Shown here one piece after another: positions 13,630 through 60,635 of a stretch of DNA of 64,000 nucleotides. The translations under genes were made by a program, and so were the position numbers. Under the pieces are notes generated by a model. That model saw only the letters and a program-made list of their open reading frames with translations. It did not search any database and was not told the DNA's origin. The stretch is taken from contig WASS01000015.1 in NCBI GenBank assembly GCA_009712635.1, positions 558,001 to 622,000 of the forward strand, written 5' to 3'. Every line of letters begins with the position of its first letter. The stretch's first letter is position 1. The DNA is from Hungatella sp. GTDB lineage: Bacteria > Bacillota > Clostridia > Lachnospirales > Lachnospiraceae.

Positions 13630-14949
13630 CTATTGGGCAGCTGTATATGCCTTCAGACACAAATTGCAGTTCTGCTTTTCTTCCACCCGCTCCCACACTT
13701 TGCCGTCAGCACTGATATAACCCTCCCCGTCAGATAAATCTACAAAGGTTCTTCCGTCTCCTGCATCATACTCAATGGCTGCAGGATGAACTGTATCGGG
13801 AGTGGTAATTTTCACAATCACTGCAAACCGCTCTCCCTTTTTTAATTTCAGTTCCTTTTTTGTTTTTTTATCAAATGATACGGTATAATAACCGGCATTT
13901 TCAAACACCCCGTCTGTCAGGAAAATCTTCCGGTCAAACCCATCCCCTTCTGTAATATCAGATTCTTTTCCCGTCTGACGTACTGCGTAAATCTCATAAG
14001 AGGTACCAGGAGCTGTTGCATAAAACCCTACAGCCTTTAAATACTGGGATTCTTCTGCTTCATAGACATTAGAAAACCATGCGGTATCATTCCCATAACC
14101 CAGCTGGCCAACCCAGCCCCGTAAATCCGACTGATAGATCCTGTCATATCTGCCCGGATCTTCTACTTCAGAGTATACAATGTTATTCATACCGATATTG
14201 GAATCATAATAGGATACATAAAAAAAGCCCTGGTCACCAAATCCATCTCCCCAGCTGTTCATGCAGATAAATGCACCATCACCATTTACCGGAACATTAA
14301 AATTTTCTCTGGAAAATCCATCATCCCAGCCGATAATTACGGAATCGTGATTGGGCGGTTCCGAGCCTATGTAGCAATAAGCGGACGCAGACTCATTATA
14401 ACTGGCGGACTTACTTCTGTCTCCATTCATGGCGGTATAGAGGGAGCTCTGGACTCCTCCGTAGCGAAGAACCGCCCGCTTTATTTTCTCGTAATCTTTC
14501 CCCGGTATCATCTGGATTTCCTGAACATGCTTACCTGCTTTGAGACCTTTGGGAGACATTCCATCACCATAAGGATCCTCTGACTCCAGTACCGGTCCCT
14601 GCCAGGAAAGGAGATATGCCATGGACATGGTATATTCTCCTCCTTCTTCCTGAGGAATACAAAACCCATTATTTAAGGACATATGATCCTCGGAGAAATC
14701 AAGTGATTCTTCTGGTAACAGTCTGGCTTCCAATGCCTGTAATGATGCAAACGCCCAGCAGGTACCAAGGGAACCCTGATTTTTCACTGCCGGAGCACGG
14801 CCGTTTTTCCTTCCGTCATAGACAGCCGGAAGCTGCCCTGTATCTGGATTATCTGTCTGTAATGGTACAAAATAGTCCGCCGCCAGGACGGCTGCTGCGG
14901 ATAACACAGCAAGAAAAAGGGCAAACCGGGTTTTATTTTTCAAACTCAT
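13630..14949 (-). CDS. Secreted C1A papain-like cysteine protease with lectin-like domain
   Basis: 439 residues. An N-terminal signal or anchor segment (about 8-24) is followed by a C1 peptidase domain with Gln58, catalytic Cys64 (NQGSLGTCWAF), His201 (PNHDSVIIGWDD) and Asn231 (MNSWGDGFGDQG): the full papain tetrad. No propeptide of usual length precedes the catalytic domain. Residues from about 270 on form a beta-rich domain like the lectin-like domain attached to clostridial C1A proteases, probably for wall or glycan binding (inference). The start overlaps the RNA methyltransferase gene by 17 bases, so a secreted protease is embedded in a housekeeping operon. Confidence 0.85.
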   Translation of the reverse strand: MSLKNKTRFALFLAVLSAAAVLAADYFVPLQTDNPDTGQLPAVYDGRKNGRAPAVKNQGSLGTCWAFASLQALEARLLPEESLDFSEDHMSLNNGFCIPQEEGGEYTMSMAYLLSWQGPVLESEDPYGDGMSPKGLKAGKHVQEIQMIPGKDYEKIKRAVLRYGGVQSSLYTAMNGDRSKSASYNESASAYCYIGSEPPNHDSVIIGWDDGFSRENFNVPVNGDGAFICMNSWGDGFGDQGFFYVSYYDSNIGMNNIVYSEVEDPGRYDRIYQSDLRGWVGQLGYGNDTAWFSNVYEAEESQYLKAVGFYATAPGTSYEIYAVRQTGKESDITEGDGFDRKIFLTDGVFENAGYYTVSFDKKTKKELKLKKGERFAVIVKITTPDTVHPAAIEYDAGDGRTFVDLSDGEGYISADGKVWERVEEKQNCNLCLKAYTAAQ

Positions 14950-18150: not shown

Positions 18151-18882
18151 TTAATCGCCAAGCACGTTGACAATTTTTACAGGTGTCCGATAATTCCACG
18201 GAGATGTCTTAATACCTGTACTATAAGTTGAGGAATGTACTACTTCTCCATTCCCGATATACATGGCAACATGATTGATGGAGCTTCCGCTTCCGTAAAA
18301 AATCAGGTCGCCTGGGCGCATCTGATCTGCGCTCACGGATCTTCCCTGTGAAGCCTGTCCACCTGATGAACGGCTGATGGAAAGTCCTGCTGCATGCTGC
18401 ATTACATATCTTGTAAATCCGGAGCAATCCACTCCTGTATGAGGATCACTGCCACCGTAGGAATAACGACCGCCTACGAACTGCAGTGCATAAGTAACAA
18501 TGCTTTGTCTGAAATTAACGGTTGACTGAGCCTGAGCCTTCTCTTCCAGTGCTTTTAAAGTTTCTTCATCGGTTGCAGTTACAGTGGCACTTCCTTCTAC
18601 CGGCAAATAGCCATATGTATCGTTCACCTTAACTTTTAAAAATCCATCCCCCATATCTTCCACAACTTCAAAGGCGGATCCTTTGGAAGCGTTCATTAAG
18701 GGTTCTGTACCTTCTTCATCTTTACTGATTGTAACCTGATCTGTGTTTACGGTTACCATGTAATTCCCAAAACTTAATCCTGGACCGGATACCTCATCTG
18801 CTCTTACATCTGAAGGAACTGCTATGATCATTGTTCCACAAAAAGCCATAAGTCCTAACGTTTTCCATACTTTGTTTATCAT
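18151..18882 (-). CDS. Secreted SH3b-NlpC/P60 peptidoglycan endopeptidase (copy A)
   Basis: 243 residues. Signal peptide (INKVWK then a hydrophobic run ending at a likely DVRADE cleavage), an SH3b-like domain (about 40-105) and a C-terminal NlpC/P60 domain with catalytic Cys in GVDCSGFTRYV, His in INHVAMYIGNGEVVHSS and the third polar residue downstream. Such enzymes cut the D-Glu to diamino-acid bond of stem peptides. A longer frame begins at 18960, but the ATG at 18882 starts the signal peptide and follows AGGAG by 11 bases. The neighbour at 19015 is a clear paralogue. Confidence 0.88.
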   Translation of the reverse strand: MINKVWKTLGLMAFCGTMIIAVPSDVRADEVSGPGLSFGNYMVTVNTDQVTISKDEEGTEPLMNASKGSAFEVVEDMGDGFLKVKVNDTYGYLPVEGSATVTATDEETLKALEEKAQAQSTVNFRQSIVTYALQFVGGRYSYGGSDPHTGVDCSGFTRYVMQHAAGLSISRSSGGQASQGRSVSADQMRPGDLIFYGSGSSINHVAMYIGNGEVVHSSTYSTGIKTSPWNYRTPVKIVNVLGD

Positions 18883-19014
18883 CGGGAAATCTGCTCCTAT
18901 TTTTACTTTTTGAGTTTCAAATGTTACGTAATTATTAATTTCATTACGGTTATTATACATTTATTTTATCTTTTCGTCAAGTATTATTTAAAACTGCACG
19001 AATTTAAAATTATA

Positions 19015-19707
19015 TTAGTTTAAAACACTGACAAATTTCACAGGTTTGCGATACATGACGTTTGTTACGATAATTCCTGTTTTTTCGGTGGATGCATGGA
19101 CTACTTTCCCATCTCCCATATATAAAGCGACATGATTAATGGATCCGTTTTTTCCATAAAATACCAGATCACCGGGACGGGCCTGATCATAACTTATGAT
19201 TTTTCCTTCCCCTGACTGTGACCTTGCACTGTGATCCAGTTCAACATCTGCGGTCTTTTTAAGGACATATCTGGTAAAACCGGAACAGTCCACTCCTGTA
19301 CTGGGATTTACACCTCCATACACGTAACGTCCTCCAACGAACTGAAGAGCATAGTCCACAACTTCCTTCCGCTCCAGTGCAGACTCGTCCACTTTTTCCT
19401 GAGTCTTTTCGATCAGTGTTGCAGAATCACTTCGTATGTAACCATCACCTTCCGGTACCTTCACCTTCAGCCAGCCATCCTTGGCAGGCTCAATCACCTC
19501 ACAGGTCTGGCCTTCCAAAGCAGAAGTCACAACTGATCCTCCATCCTCCGCAGTGGTTCTGACTGATACAGGCTTGTCCAGTCTGGCATAAAGAGTGGTA
19601 CTGGTTTCTACTGTGATTTCATCCGCTTTCGCCTCTGTCTGATTGCTTAAACTTAAGGTAGTTAAAAGTCCTAAAAGTCCCATGACCTTCCACATTCTGA
19701 TTTTCAT
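19015..19707 (-). CDS. Secreted SH3b-NlpC/P60 peptidoglycan endopeptidase (copy B)
   Basis: 230 residues with the same plan as copy A: signal peptide (KIRMWKVMG.. to about TEAKADE), SH3b-like region, linker with a charged helix (KTQEKVDESALERKE) and NlpC/P60 domain with GVDCSGFTRYVLKK and INHVALYMGDGKVVHAS. ATG at 19707 follows AGGAG by seven bases. Copies A and B share most of the catalytic domain but differ in the SH3 region, indicating tandem duplication and divergence. No terminator is visible in the 132 bases between them, so they may be cotranscribed. Confidence 0.88.
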   Translation of the reverse strand: MKIRMWKVMGLLGLLTTLSLSNQTEAKADEITVETSTTLYARLDKPVSVRTTAEDGGSVVTSALEGQTCEVIEPAKDGWLKVKVPEGDGYIRSDSATLIEKTQEKVDESALERKEVVDYALQFVGGRYVYGGVNPSTGVDCSGFTRYVLKKTADVELDHSARSQSGEGKIISYDQARPGDLVFYGKNGSINHVALYMGDGKVVHASTEKTGIIVTNVMYRKPVKFVSVLN

Positions 19708-19815
19708 AACGAATCTCCTGTCTGCGTATGATAGCTGTCGCCGCAAATATTTGACTTAAATATTACATAATTGTTACATTTTGAATTATATCCTCTGTCG
19801 CAGCTTTTGTCAAGC

Positions 19816-22424: not shown

Positions 22425-22580
22425 AAATACGTTCTCCCTTTTTTTGACACAGTTGCATTGCTTTGAATTTTATAGTATCATAAAAAACGTCAATTTTAAA
22501 CCCCTTTCGCCTGTCAGTCGTCCATGACCGGCCAGGCTATGAACGTAAAACCGGGAACACCCCAGAAAAAGGAGATACAT

Positions 22581-23387
22581 ATGGAACAATTATATGTTTT
22601 CGGAACTGGCAATGCCGCTGCCACCAAATGCTATAATACCTGCTTTGCCTTAAAAAATGACGAGGAATATTTTATGATTGACGCCGGAGGCGGCAACGGA
22701 ATCCTCTCTATATTAGATGACATGAATGTGGATCTGTCTCATGTCCACCATATATTTGCAACTCATGAACACACCGATCATATTCTTGGTATTATCTGGA
22801 TGGTGCGGTTTATTGGAGCCAGAATCAAATCAGAGAACTACGATGGGGATCTAAATATTTACAGCCATAAAAATCTGGTTTTCGTAATCGATACTCTCTG
22901 CCGCCTCACTTTGCAAAAAAAATTTTATGATCTCATTGGAACCAGAATTCATTTAATCCCGGTGGAAGACGGAGAAACCAGATCCATACTTGGATATGAC
23001 ATCACTTTTTTTGATATTCATTCCACAAAAGCGGAGCAGTATGGATTTACCACAACTCTGGGTAACGGAAAACGCCTGTCCTTTTGCGGCGATGAGCCCT
23101 ATAATCCCCAATGTCATGAATTTGTTGAAGGAACCAGCTGGCTGCTCCATGAAACCTTTTGCCTTTATAAGGACCGGGAAGTATTTAAGCCCTACGAAAA
23201 GCATCACAGTACAGTCGCGGATGCCTGCCAGCTTGCAGAGGAATTAAAGGCAGAGCATTTGATTTTATGGCATACTGAGGATAAGAACTTAAATAACAGA
23301 AAAGAGCTCTATATCAGTGAAGGCAGTCCTTTCTTTTCCGGTGAACTTTTAATTCCGGAGGACAAAGAAATCATTAAACTTTCCTGA
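22581..23387 (+). CDS. Metallo-beta-lactamase-fold hydrolase
   Basis: 268 residues. Metal motif THEHTDHILG (HxHxDH), the later His in STKAEQ/FDIHSTK, Asp in FCGDEP and His in LILWHTED match RNase Z-like/phosphodiesterase members of the superfamily. LHETFCL after the Asp motif resembles the RNase Z-like pattern, but the exosite of true RNase Z is not evident, so substrate is left open. The in-frame ATG at 22524 lacks a site; the ATG at 22581 follows AAGGAG by seven bases. Separate transcription unit. Confidence 0.85.
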   Translation: MEQLYVFGTGNAAATKCYNTCFALKNDEEYFMIDAGGGNGILSILDDMNVDLSHVHHIFATHEHTDHILGIIWMVRFIGARIKSENYDGDLNIYSHKNLVFVIDTLCRLTLQKKFYDLIGTRIHLIPVEDGETRSILGYDITFFDIHSTKAEQYGFTTTLGNGKRLSFCGDEPYNPQCHEFVEGTSWLLHETFCLYKDREVFKPYEKHHSTVADACQLAEELKAEHLILWHTEDKNLNNRKELYISEGSPFFSGELLIPEDKEIIKLS

Positions 23388-23454
23388 CAAAAAAATCACT
23401 CGTCCCCGACACTGCATATTATATAACAATAGAAAAAGCAAAGGAGTTTCTCAT

Positions 23455-23748
23455 ATGTTTTGCCCGGGCGGCTTTACCCCTTACCGTGACGTCGACTGCA
23501 GAGACCTGGCTATTTTCTATGAGGCCACCAGGGAATTACGCGGCACTACCTACAAGCCATATCTGGTGGCAACACAGGAAGCCAGGGGAGTCAACTTCCG
23601 ATTTATCTGCAACTCCACGATTATGACCAGACCTCCTCAGAATGCAATCACCATGGTTTGCATTTTTAAACCCTTTTGCAAAGAACATGATAAGGCCAGG
23701 GCGGTTGTGACGAGTATCTGTAAAATGGGATGCTACAATTGTAATTAA
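23455..23748 (+). CDS. Small cystatin/stefin-like protein
   Basis: 97 residues, no signal peptide, eight Cys (3, 15, 52, 69, 75, 89, 93, 96). After a short helix (CRDLAIFYEATREL) comes YLVATQEARGVNFRFICNS: this follows the stefin order helix - strand - Q-x-V-x-G loop - strand, with QEARG (41-45) where stefins have QVVAG and the following VNF where they have TNY. A second strand pair ending in FKPF fits the second inhibitory loop region. So a cystatin fold is likely; inhibition of papain-type proteases is inference. AAAGGAG site, ATG, own terminator. Not a family I can name with certainty. Confidence 0.6.
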   Translation: MFCPGGFTPYRDVDCRDLAIFYEATRELRGTTYKPYLVATQEARGVNFRFICNSTIMTRPPQNAITMVCIFKPFCKEHDKARAVVTSICKMGCYNCN

Positions 23749-23752
23749 TTAT

Positions 23753-23789
23753 AAATCGGAACGGTTTTCACACCGTCCCGATTTTTTAA
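23753..23789 (+). terminator. Terminator after cystatin-like gene
   Basis: AATCGGAACGGT pairs with ACCGTCCCGATT (one mismatch) around a six-base loop, followed by six T. It also lies just before the convergent alcohol dehydrogenase stop. Confidence 0.85.
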
Positions 23790-59900: not shown

Positions 59901-60635
59901 TTATTCCCAATAAACCACAACATTTTTTGCCGCATCATCTACATACGTCATATACCGTATGGATTTTTCAAACTGACTTCTTGGCATACTGATTAAAACA
60001 GAAGTATCCCACGGATTGATCACCACTACAGTGTTTTTATTTACACTCTTAATGGAATAGGAATGACCGCCATCACCAATAATTCCTCTGCCTGGATCTG
60101 CTATATTAAAATCGCAGGCTGCTGTAATTCCTTCTCCATTCTGGCACTTGGCAGCCATGATATTCATGATTTCTGTTTTATTTGACTTCCAGTATGTTCT
60201 TTGCTTGAATCCGGTCATCGTCGTAAATACATCGCAGGCAAAGCAACTATTATATACATTCATGGCCTTCTGTAATCCAGCTTCAATGACTCTGGCATCC
60301 AGATCCCCTTCAATATACGCATTTTCAACATCCCAGTCCGTTACAGTTTGTCTTCCGGAACCGAAATTAAGTGTATAGGTACCATTATAATTATCTGTAA
60401 TCATTTTTCTAAAGATTTTTCTTCCATATTTGCTGTTATCCAGTGCCTGTATGGCTGAAACTGCTCCACAGTCATTGGCATCACCCTGATGAAATGTGCT
60501 TAGCTTCCCATCCAGTTGTGTTGCGGGATCACCTGCATAGGCTGTAATTGGTGTAAATGTCGCTCCTGCAGCAATTCCCAATGCTAAGCAGAATGCTCCA
60601 ATTTTTGTTTTTATTTTTCTCACTTTATTATTCAT
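59901..60635 (-). CDS. Minimal secreted calpain-like (C2-type) cysteine protease
   Basis: 244 residues. Signal peptide (KVRKIKTK, hydrophobic run, cleavage near AYAGD at about 35). Catalytic triad in calpain order: Gln50 and Cys56 (HQGDANDCGAVSAIQAL, Gln six residues before Cys as in calpains), His191 (GDGGHSYSIKSV) and Asn207 (VVINPWDTS, calpains NPWG). No C2-like, EF-hand or prodomain: the catalytic core alone is exported. A few bacteria have calpain-like proteases, most of them larger. Substrate unknown. Starts ATG after GGAAT-type weak site; promoter and palindrome lie at about 60821-60845. Confidence 0.75.
   Translation of the reverse strand: MNNKVRKIKTKIGAFCLALGIAAGATFTPITAYAGDPATQLDGKLSTFHQGDANDCGAVSAIQALDNSKYGRKIFRKMITDNYNGTYTLNFGSGRQTVTDWDVENAYIEGDLDARVIEAGLQKAMNVYNSCFACDVFTTMTGFKQRTYWKSNKTEIMNIMAAKCQNGEGITAACDFNIADPGRGIIGDGGHSYSIKSVNKNTVVVINPWDTSVLISMPRSQFEKSIRYMTYVDDAAKNVVVYWE

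Follow-up and report, generated by a model that had tools for sequence, protein, structure and literature searches.

Stefins (type 1 cystatins, I25A; human stefin A, PDB 1dvc) are proteins of about 100 aa that carry no signal peptide. Three of their elements, the N-terminal Gly, the QxVxG loop and the second hairpin, insert into the protease cleft and are referred to here as the wedge. Stefins have also been described in bacteria: Kordis and Turk (2009; PMC2784779) reported them in 17 genera (the set includes Clostridium asparagiforme, Oribacterium and Bacteroides), treated them as inhibitors gained by horizontal transfer and suggested a role in defence against host proteolysis. A preliminary description of the locus discussed here held that a native inhibitor in gut anaerobes would be notable, but stefins of such bacteria had already been published in 2009. 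The proteins treated here resemble the Kordis-Turk set in their patchy occurrence in Clostridia and gut bacteria, C. asparagiforme among them; they differ in that the part of that paper available to us describes no wedge-less, sporulation-linked branch. The locus in question encodes P0001, a protein that agrees with stefins in length, in the absence of a signal peptide and in the order of its elements (trunk-helix-strand-Q..G-strand-hairpin-strand). It departs from them in having QEARG in place of QxVxG, no second-hairpin Gly, eight Cys and a sporulation-type promoter.

Cystatin E/M offers another comparison, as its legumain-binding site lies away from the papain wedge. Its second functional site is built from two loops, one of which follows the helix (PDB 4N6N; PMC7863939), and it is in these parts that P0001 can be likened to it; unlike cystatin E/M, P0001 has a degenerate papain site, and a legumain-type target is not known for it. 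Staphostatins and Spi are cytoplasmic inhibitors of secreted bacterial cysteine proteases, the same role that one of the rival explanations weighed below would give to P0001; staphostatins are lipocalin-like, not cystatin-like, and are co-transcribed with their protease (PMC3462683). The P0001 gene is not co-transcribed with one. Among the matches listed in the open-access literature, no publication was found that ties a cystatin to bacterial spores; the sporulation literature naming a cystatin, again among the matches listed, concerned mouse cystatin A1 only, and these matches held no expression study of Lacrimispora sporulation.

A conserved gene in Lacrimispora

The gene lies in a 64 kb window (the whole stretch of DNA analysed), together with a ribosome-binding site and a hairpin:

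23440..23446, + strand: ribosome-binding site AAAGGAG, conserved among orthologues
23455..23748, + strand: P0001, a 97-aa stefin-type protein with an ATG start, kept across the genus and matched by the family HMM
23754..23787, + strand: terminator-like hairpin with a T run, present in part of the genus

A search with a 10-row profile found the gene in 25 of 25 genomes of the Lacrimispora genus, and its dN/dS is 0.145 (24 distinct DNA copies from the 25 genomes). Together with the conserved block of promoter and ribosome-binding site, these figures argue against an open reading frame that arose by chance: 23455-23748 is a real gene under purifying selection. Counts out of 25 refer throughout to genus genomes, and counts out of 21 to P0001-type copies that are distinct open reading frames from two collections, identical ones having been merged. 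Among close relatives in named records, six of nine are Lacrimispora and three are metagenome bins labelled Paenibacillaceae. Bins with that label (L007-L009) carry copies 99% identical to the P0001 gene, and their labels look wrong.

The features first read from the protein are all present: eight Cys (residues 3, 15, 52, 69, 75, 89, 93 and 96), QEARG at residues 41-45 and VNF at residues 46-48. Inspection of the N-terminus by eye found no hydrophobic stretch and no signal peptide, which agrees with the cytoplasmic location assigned at the outset. The gene had also been credited with its own terminator. A hairpin with a T run is indeed present; the terminator scan counted only five pairs in it, and shuffled sequence yields a mean of 0.8 terminator-like sites per 601 bases scanned. 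The hairpin was seen 3' of the stefin gene in 10 of 22 orthologue downstream sequences inspected by eye, out of 25 orthologues in total.

Relationship to cystatins

As a single sequence, P0001 gives no match at E<=10 in Pfam, NCBIfam or PDB. Relatives at about 30% identity, with GGW at the N-terminus and a typical cystatin loop (QVVAG, QVVNGTNY), were found in a search of 397 Lachnospiraceae genomes. When a profile was built from 48 domains with the P0001-type copies excluded, it matched P0001 at E 2.8e-7 (Z 100,000), as against E 83 for the best of 2000 shuffled P0001 sequences. Likewise, hhalign matches the P0001-type profile to the 48 other domains with a probability of 95.9 and an E of 5.5e-9. 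Profile A4, which consists of 22 of the 48 family domains chosen by hand for diversity, reaches 21 PDB sequences at E<=1 (best E 1e-4; human stefin A, PDB 1dvc, E 0.0023), and all 21 are named cystatin, stefin or cystatin-like inhibitor, one being labelled CPI. The P0001-type profile by itself has no PDB match at E<=10, so the cystatin link runs via intermediate family members. On this profile evidence P0001 is, by ancestry, a stefin-type protein of the cystatin superfamily. Both AlphaFold2 models of P0001 have a pLDDT below 40 (38.0 with an eight-row alignment of near-identical sequences, 39.5 from the single sequence), and its fold is therefore read from the sequence.

The Pfam Cystatin model (PF00031) is reached at E<=1 by 2 of 22 family members, with a best E of 0.13, and NCBIfam returned for 22 family members only single weak matches to unrelated models. 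What comes to view is thus a bacterial stefin-like family that Pfam and NCBIfam have missed, with no model of either above cut-off. Its members occur in 30 of 397 genomes of a Lachnospiraceae sample (10-row profile) and in 15 of 391 genomes of a class sample (22-row profile). A tree of 61 rows places the cytosolic single-domain proteins in one clade (support 97/97). Its members are the P0001 type, a group of wedge-intact proteins of three other Lachnospiraceae genera, and five sequences that come from outside this family. The P0001 type is sister to the wedge-intact cytosolic Lachnospiraceae stefins (support 94/82), and its stem measures 1.45 changes per column, a rough figure from few alignment columns.

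The source genome encodes a second cytosolic-looking stefin, with QIVAGKNH (L122:14020-14316, contig C6), near the end of a 14.6 kb contig. This QIVAG paralogue has an intact first loop, is found in 6 of the 25 genus genomes and is a lineage separate from P0001: its copies L069-L071 group in the tree with two other paralogue rows, apart from the cytosolic clade. Many of the stefin-like proteins look exported, and those at L076, L079-L093, L095 and L097 make up an unannotated family found in Lachnospiraceae and other Clostridia. By eye, such proteins mostly have GGW...QVVAG and often look like lipoproteins with two domains. Two cytosolic-looking stefin-like proteins from outside Lachnospiraceae in the class sample (L137, L138) have also lost the QxVxG loop, apparently independently of the P0001 branch. 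The idea of a mobile or phage gene was rejected: viral contigs held no relatives in searches with single proteins and one close alignment, and phage records gave only weak matches, the best at E 7.

Decay of the papain-binding wedge

Four segments of the protein differ sharply in how they have evolved:

23575..23589, + strand: QEARG, the degenerate QxVxG loop (L1 of the wedge)
23623..23652, + strand: MTRPPQNAIT hairpin, residues 57-66, invariant in the genus at 10 of 10 columns
23680..23706, + strand: L2 segment, residues 76-84, which differs between copies in both length and sequence and has no aligned family Gly
23707..23736, + strand: C-terminal VTSICKMGCY strand with Cys 89 and 93, pN/pS 0.07

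The ratio pN/pS is 0.79 at the N-terminus, 0.38 in L1 and 0.42 in L2, and falls to 0.04 in the MTRPPQNAIT hairpin and 0.07 in the C-terminal strand. Among Lacrimispora copies, 1 of 23 wedge columns is invariant versus 47 of 75 in the rest of the protein (Fisher 3.9e-7, with the wedge columns defined by stefin topology, but at a point when ten copies had already been inspected for conservation). When 22 other family domains are aligned, the invariant or near-invariant columns lie in the wedge elements, with the exception of one Ala. The pattern of conservation in Lacrimispora is inverted relative to these domains: the wedge is the least conserved part.

Single positions were compared between the 21 P0001-type copies and 43 other domains, a set that excludes five copies of the QIVAG paralogue. 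The Gly aligned to the second hairpin is present in 43 of 43 other domains and in 0 of 21 P0001-type copies, three of which have a Gly elsewhere in a lengthened L2. The third position of QxVxG is Val in 2 of the 21; Gln41 is retained in 20 and Gly45 in all of them. As for the N-terminal Gly of the wedge, Gly5 is found in 17 copies and Gly6 in 8. The family's Trp7 has become Phe or Tyr in 21 of 21, compared with 5 of 43 other domains, and the Trp is also missing in 5 of 38 exported-type domains. Gains are equally consistent: Cys 15, 75, 89 and 93 are present in every P0001-type copy and in none of the 43 other domains, and Cys 52 and Arg29-Gly30 likewise occur in 21 of 21. In P0001, conservation is among the highest at residues 28-40 and 57-66, and the MTRPPQNAIT hairpin would sit opposite the wedge, a position given by stefin topology and not by a structural model.

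These observations divide the original proposal of a stefin-like cysteine-protease inhibitor in two. Stefin ancestry stands, by profile homology; an active papain inhibitor is not supported by a sequence in which the wedge is degenerate. Some cystatins tolerate changes in QxVxG, and given this tolerance and the retention of Gln41 and Gly45 in most copies, a full loss of inhibition is less certain.

A sporulation-type promoter

In Clostridium difficile, sigma E and sigma K promoters are described as sharing a -10 type (CATATTAT and CATATAAT at sigK) and as differing at -35, which is ATA for sigma E and AC for sigma K (PMC3789822). Two elements upstream of the stefin gene can be compared with these:

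23398..23399, + strand: possible sigma-K -35 'AC' with a 15 nt spacer, weak
23415..23423, + strand: -10 box CATATTATA (CATANNNTA, mother-cell sigma E/K type) within the skeleton CATATNNTRTAAC

Directly 5' of the gene, and followed by the ribosome-binding site, all 25 copies have a conserved block, GCATAT[TCG]ATATAACA, with one base changed in L061. The -10 box CATANNNTA is found in 25 of 25 orthologues and the full 13-base skeleton in 24, L061 being one base off; within the 64 kb window the skeleton CATATNNTRTAAC occurs once, at 23415. The spoIVA gene of the same genus served as a positive control and has this skeleton 34 nt before its start at 24 of 24 loci, with the strict box at 7 and TG for TA at 17. 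The stefin and spoIVA promoters are not alike throughout, since the -35 ATA is present at 24 of 24 spoIVA loci and before 0 of 25 stefin orthologues. Of the 25 orthologues, 17 have an AC with a 17 nt spacer and 2, the window copy among them, have it with 15 nt; 6 have none at 15-17 nt. This weak -35 pattern leans to sigma K. Four orthologues (L063-L066) have a wholly different -35 region (CCTTAAGGTCAAGTT or near, versus CGTCCCC) and keep both the AC at 17 nt and the -10.

The box extends to the nearest relatives. CATANNNTR stands at -35 or -36 before each of the five wedge-intact sister stefins, which come from three genera: L073, L077, L078 and L094 carry CATANNNTA at -36, and L074, which matches the relaxed box only, carries CATANNNTG at -35. 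As controls, among open reading frames of at least 120 aa with a start supported by a ribosome-binding site, the strict box precedes none of 50 genes in the window and 2 of 71 in the vicinity of other stefins, and the relaxed box CATANNNTR precedes 4 of 121 genes. The strict box precedes none of the 16 exported stefins whose start was usable (5 of 21 were dropped for an unusable one, and the start of L083 is doubtful) and none of the 5 QIVAG paralogues; the relaxed box matches one exported stefin, the L075 gene in L124. Cytosolic relatives outside Lachnospiraceae show no box within 75 nt (5 loci), with L133 having one at -109. Across the genome, the exact long promoter pattern with no mismatch occurs only at the P0001 locus; allowing up to 3 mismatches gives 11 matches, and the reversed control gives 9, so nothing beyond the box is gained from the long pattern. 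Judged by its sequence, the stefin -10 is an element of the sigma-E/sigma-K (sporulation mother cell) type, although this AT-rich box could in part serve sigma A.

A proposed repurposing in sporulation

An explanation to which we give about even chances is that P0001 is a stefin recruited to the sporulation programme and repurposed, and that it is probably no longer a papain inhibitor. Its ancestor would have been a bacterial stefin whose papain-binding wedge was intact. Along the stem leading to Lacrimispora the wedge decayed (the QxVxG loop, the second-hairpin Gly and the Trp after the N-terminal Gly), four Cys were gained and fixed, and the opposite end came under strong constraint. Promoter resemblance suggests mother-cell expression of the gene during sporulation, with sigma K or sigma E as the likely transcribing factor. 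The product would be cytosolic and probably would not block papain-like proteases; it would most likely serve the developing spore as a binding or structural protein, with the conserved opposite face and the Cys residues making contacts or cross-links or binding a metal. Because the protease-blocking part has been lost and the promoter resembles that of a core spore gene, P0001 is probably a protein of spore formation that is built on the fold of a former inhibitor.

Stated more broadly, the endospore programme may have captured a branch of the cystatins, with a mother-cell stefin that is wedge-intact in sister genera becoming a Cys-rich spore protein that works through its opposite face; we hold this view tentatively, at slightly less than even confidence. 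If true, it would tie cystatins to bacterial spore formation and would provide a bacterial case of a protease inhibitor turned to other use. A change from inhibition to other functions has been described for vertebrate cystatins (PMC2784779). The wedge-intact cytosolic sisters with the same -10 type would also raise the question of which cysteine protease acts in the Lachnospiraceae mother cell.

Proteases, neighbouring genes and alternative roles

Two further genes of the window need to be considered:

13630..14949, - strand: papain-family (C1) protease, exported-looking, with a lectin-like domain (PF18560); Peptidase_C1 E 6.4e-18
22524..23387, + strand: MBL-fold hydrolase, RNase Z-like, the upstream neighbour, also in L013

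The preliminary description counted two papain-fold proteases in the window. One of them holds, 13630-14949 being the only PF00112 match in the source genome at E<=0.001. The other, at 59.9 kb (59901-60635, - strand), is exported-looking and has only a Peptidase_C2 match of 21 bits, under the cut-off of 23.8, which leaves its identity as a papain-fold protease uncertain.

By analogy with staphostatins, P0001 could be a cytosolic guardian, still binding the only papain-family protease of the genome until that enzyme is exported and keeping it from acting too early. Each of the 25 genus genomes has the stefin gene and exactly one PF00112 match at E<=0.001, and in 20 of the 25 the stefin and C1 genes are no more than 25 kb from each other on the same contig (of the other pairs, one is 46 kb apart, one is far apart and three are split between contigs). 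It is on account of this single match and this proximity that the idea is kept as a rival, and it is helped by the retention of Gln41 and Gly45 in most copies. Compared by eye, all seven genomes of the family sample with a cytosolic-group member also have a C1 protease, although these seven cover only four genera. We nevertheless consider a guardian unlikely. The C1 gene of the window does not share an operon with the stefin gene, lying 8.5 kb away and on the opposite strand; the wedge is the least conserved part of P0001; and a sporulation-type promoter would be ill-suited to the guard of a vegetative secreted enzyme. Co-occurrence is flat as well, with a C1 protease in 15 of 30 stefin genomes versus 204 of 397 overall (Lachnospiraceae sample, memberships compared by eye), and for want of enrichment the organism's own C1 protease was rejected as the obvious partner.

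Inhibition through the other face is less probable again. Here a mother-cell protease would be blocked by the MTRPPQN hairpin together with the Leu-Arg-Gly loop that follows the helix, much as cystatin E blocks legumain with its reactive loop and another loop; its contacts with legumain run via G37-I41 and a second loop from D72 (PMC7863939). Both segments, residues 28-40 and 57-66, belong to the best-conserved stretches of P0001, and Arg29-Gly30 is constant in the 21 copies. The Arg-specific candidates tell against the idea: YabG (PF05582) and clostripain C11 (PF03415), which prefer Arg, each have matches in 0 of 25 genus genomes and were rejected as targets. A metal or iron-sulfur protein, in which the four new Cys and Cys52 bind metal in the stefin scaffold, seems a little more doubtful still. 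The gain and fixation of Cys 15, 75, 89 and 93 and the constancy of Cys 52 would suit it, as would a cytosol that is presumably anaerobic, but P0001 matches no catalogued family (no Pfam match at E<=10). Very improbable is an 'emergency inhibitor' of host cathepsins, the role proposed for bacterial stefins in 2009 (PMC2784779), as P0001 has no export signal by eye, a degenerate wedge and a sporulation-type promoter of its own. An exported anti-host inhibitor would suit the N-termini of many family relatives and was rejected for P0001. The explanation we prefer remains that of a stefin repurposed in the sporulation programme.

The product of 22524-23387, immediately upstream, resembles RNase Z and cyclic-nucleotide phosphodiesterases. 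A conserved operon with this MBL gene was considered and rejected: the arrangement is kept in L013, but by eye several orthologues have other DNA above the promoter block. Open reading frame lists of the sister-stefin neighbourhoods, compared by eye, share no gene set common to the genera. Elsewhere in the window, 18151-19746 (- strand) encodes two adjoining NlpC/P60 proteins with SH3 domain matches.
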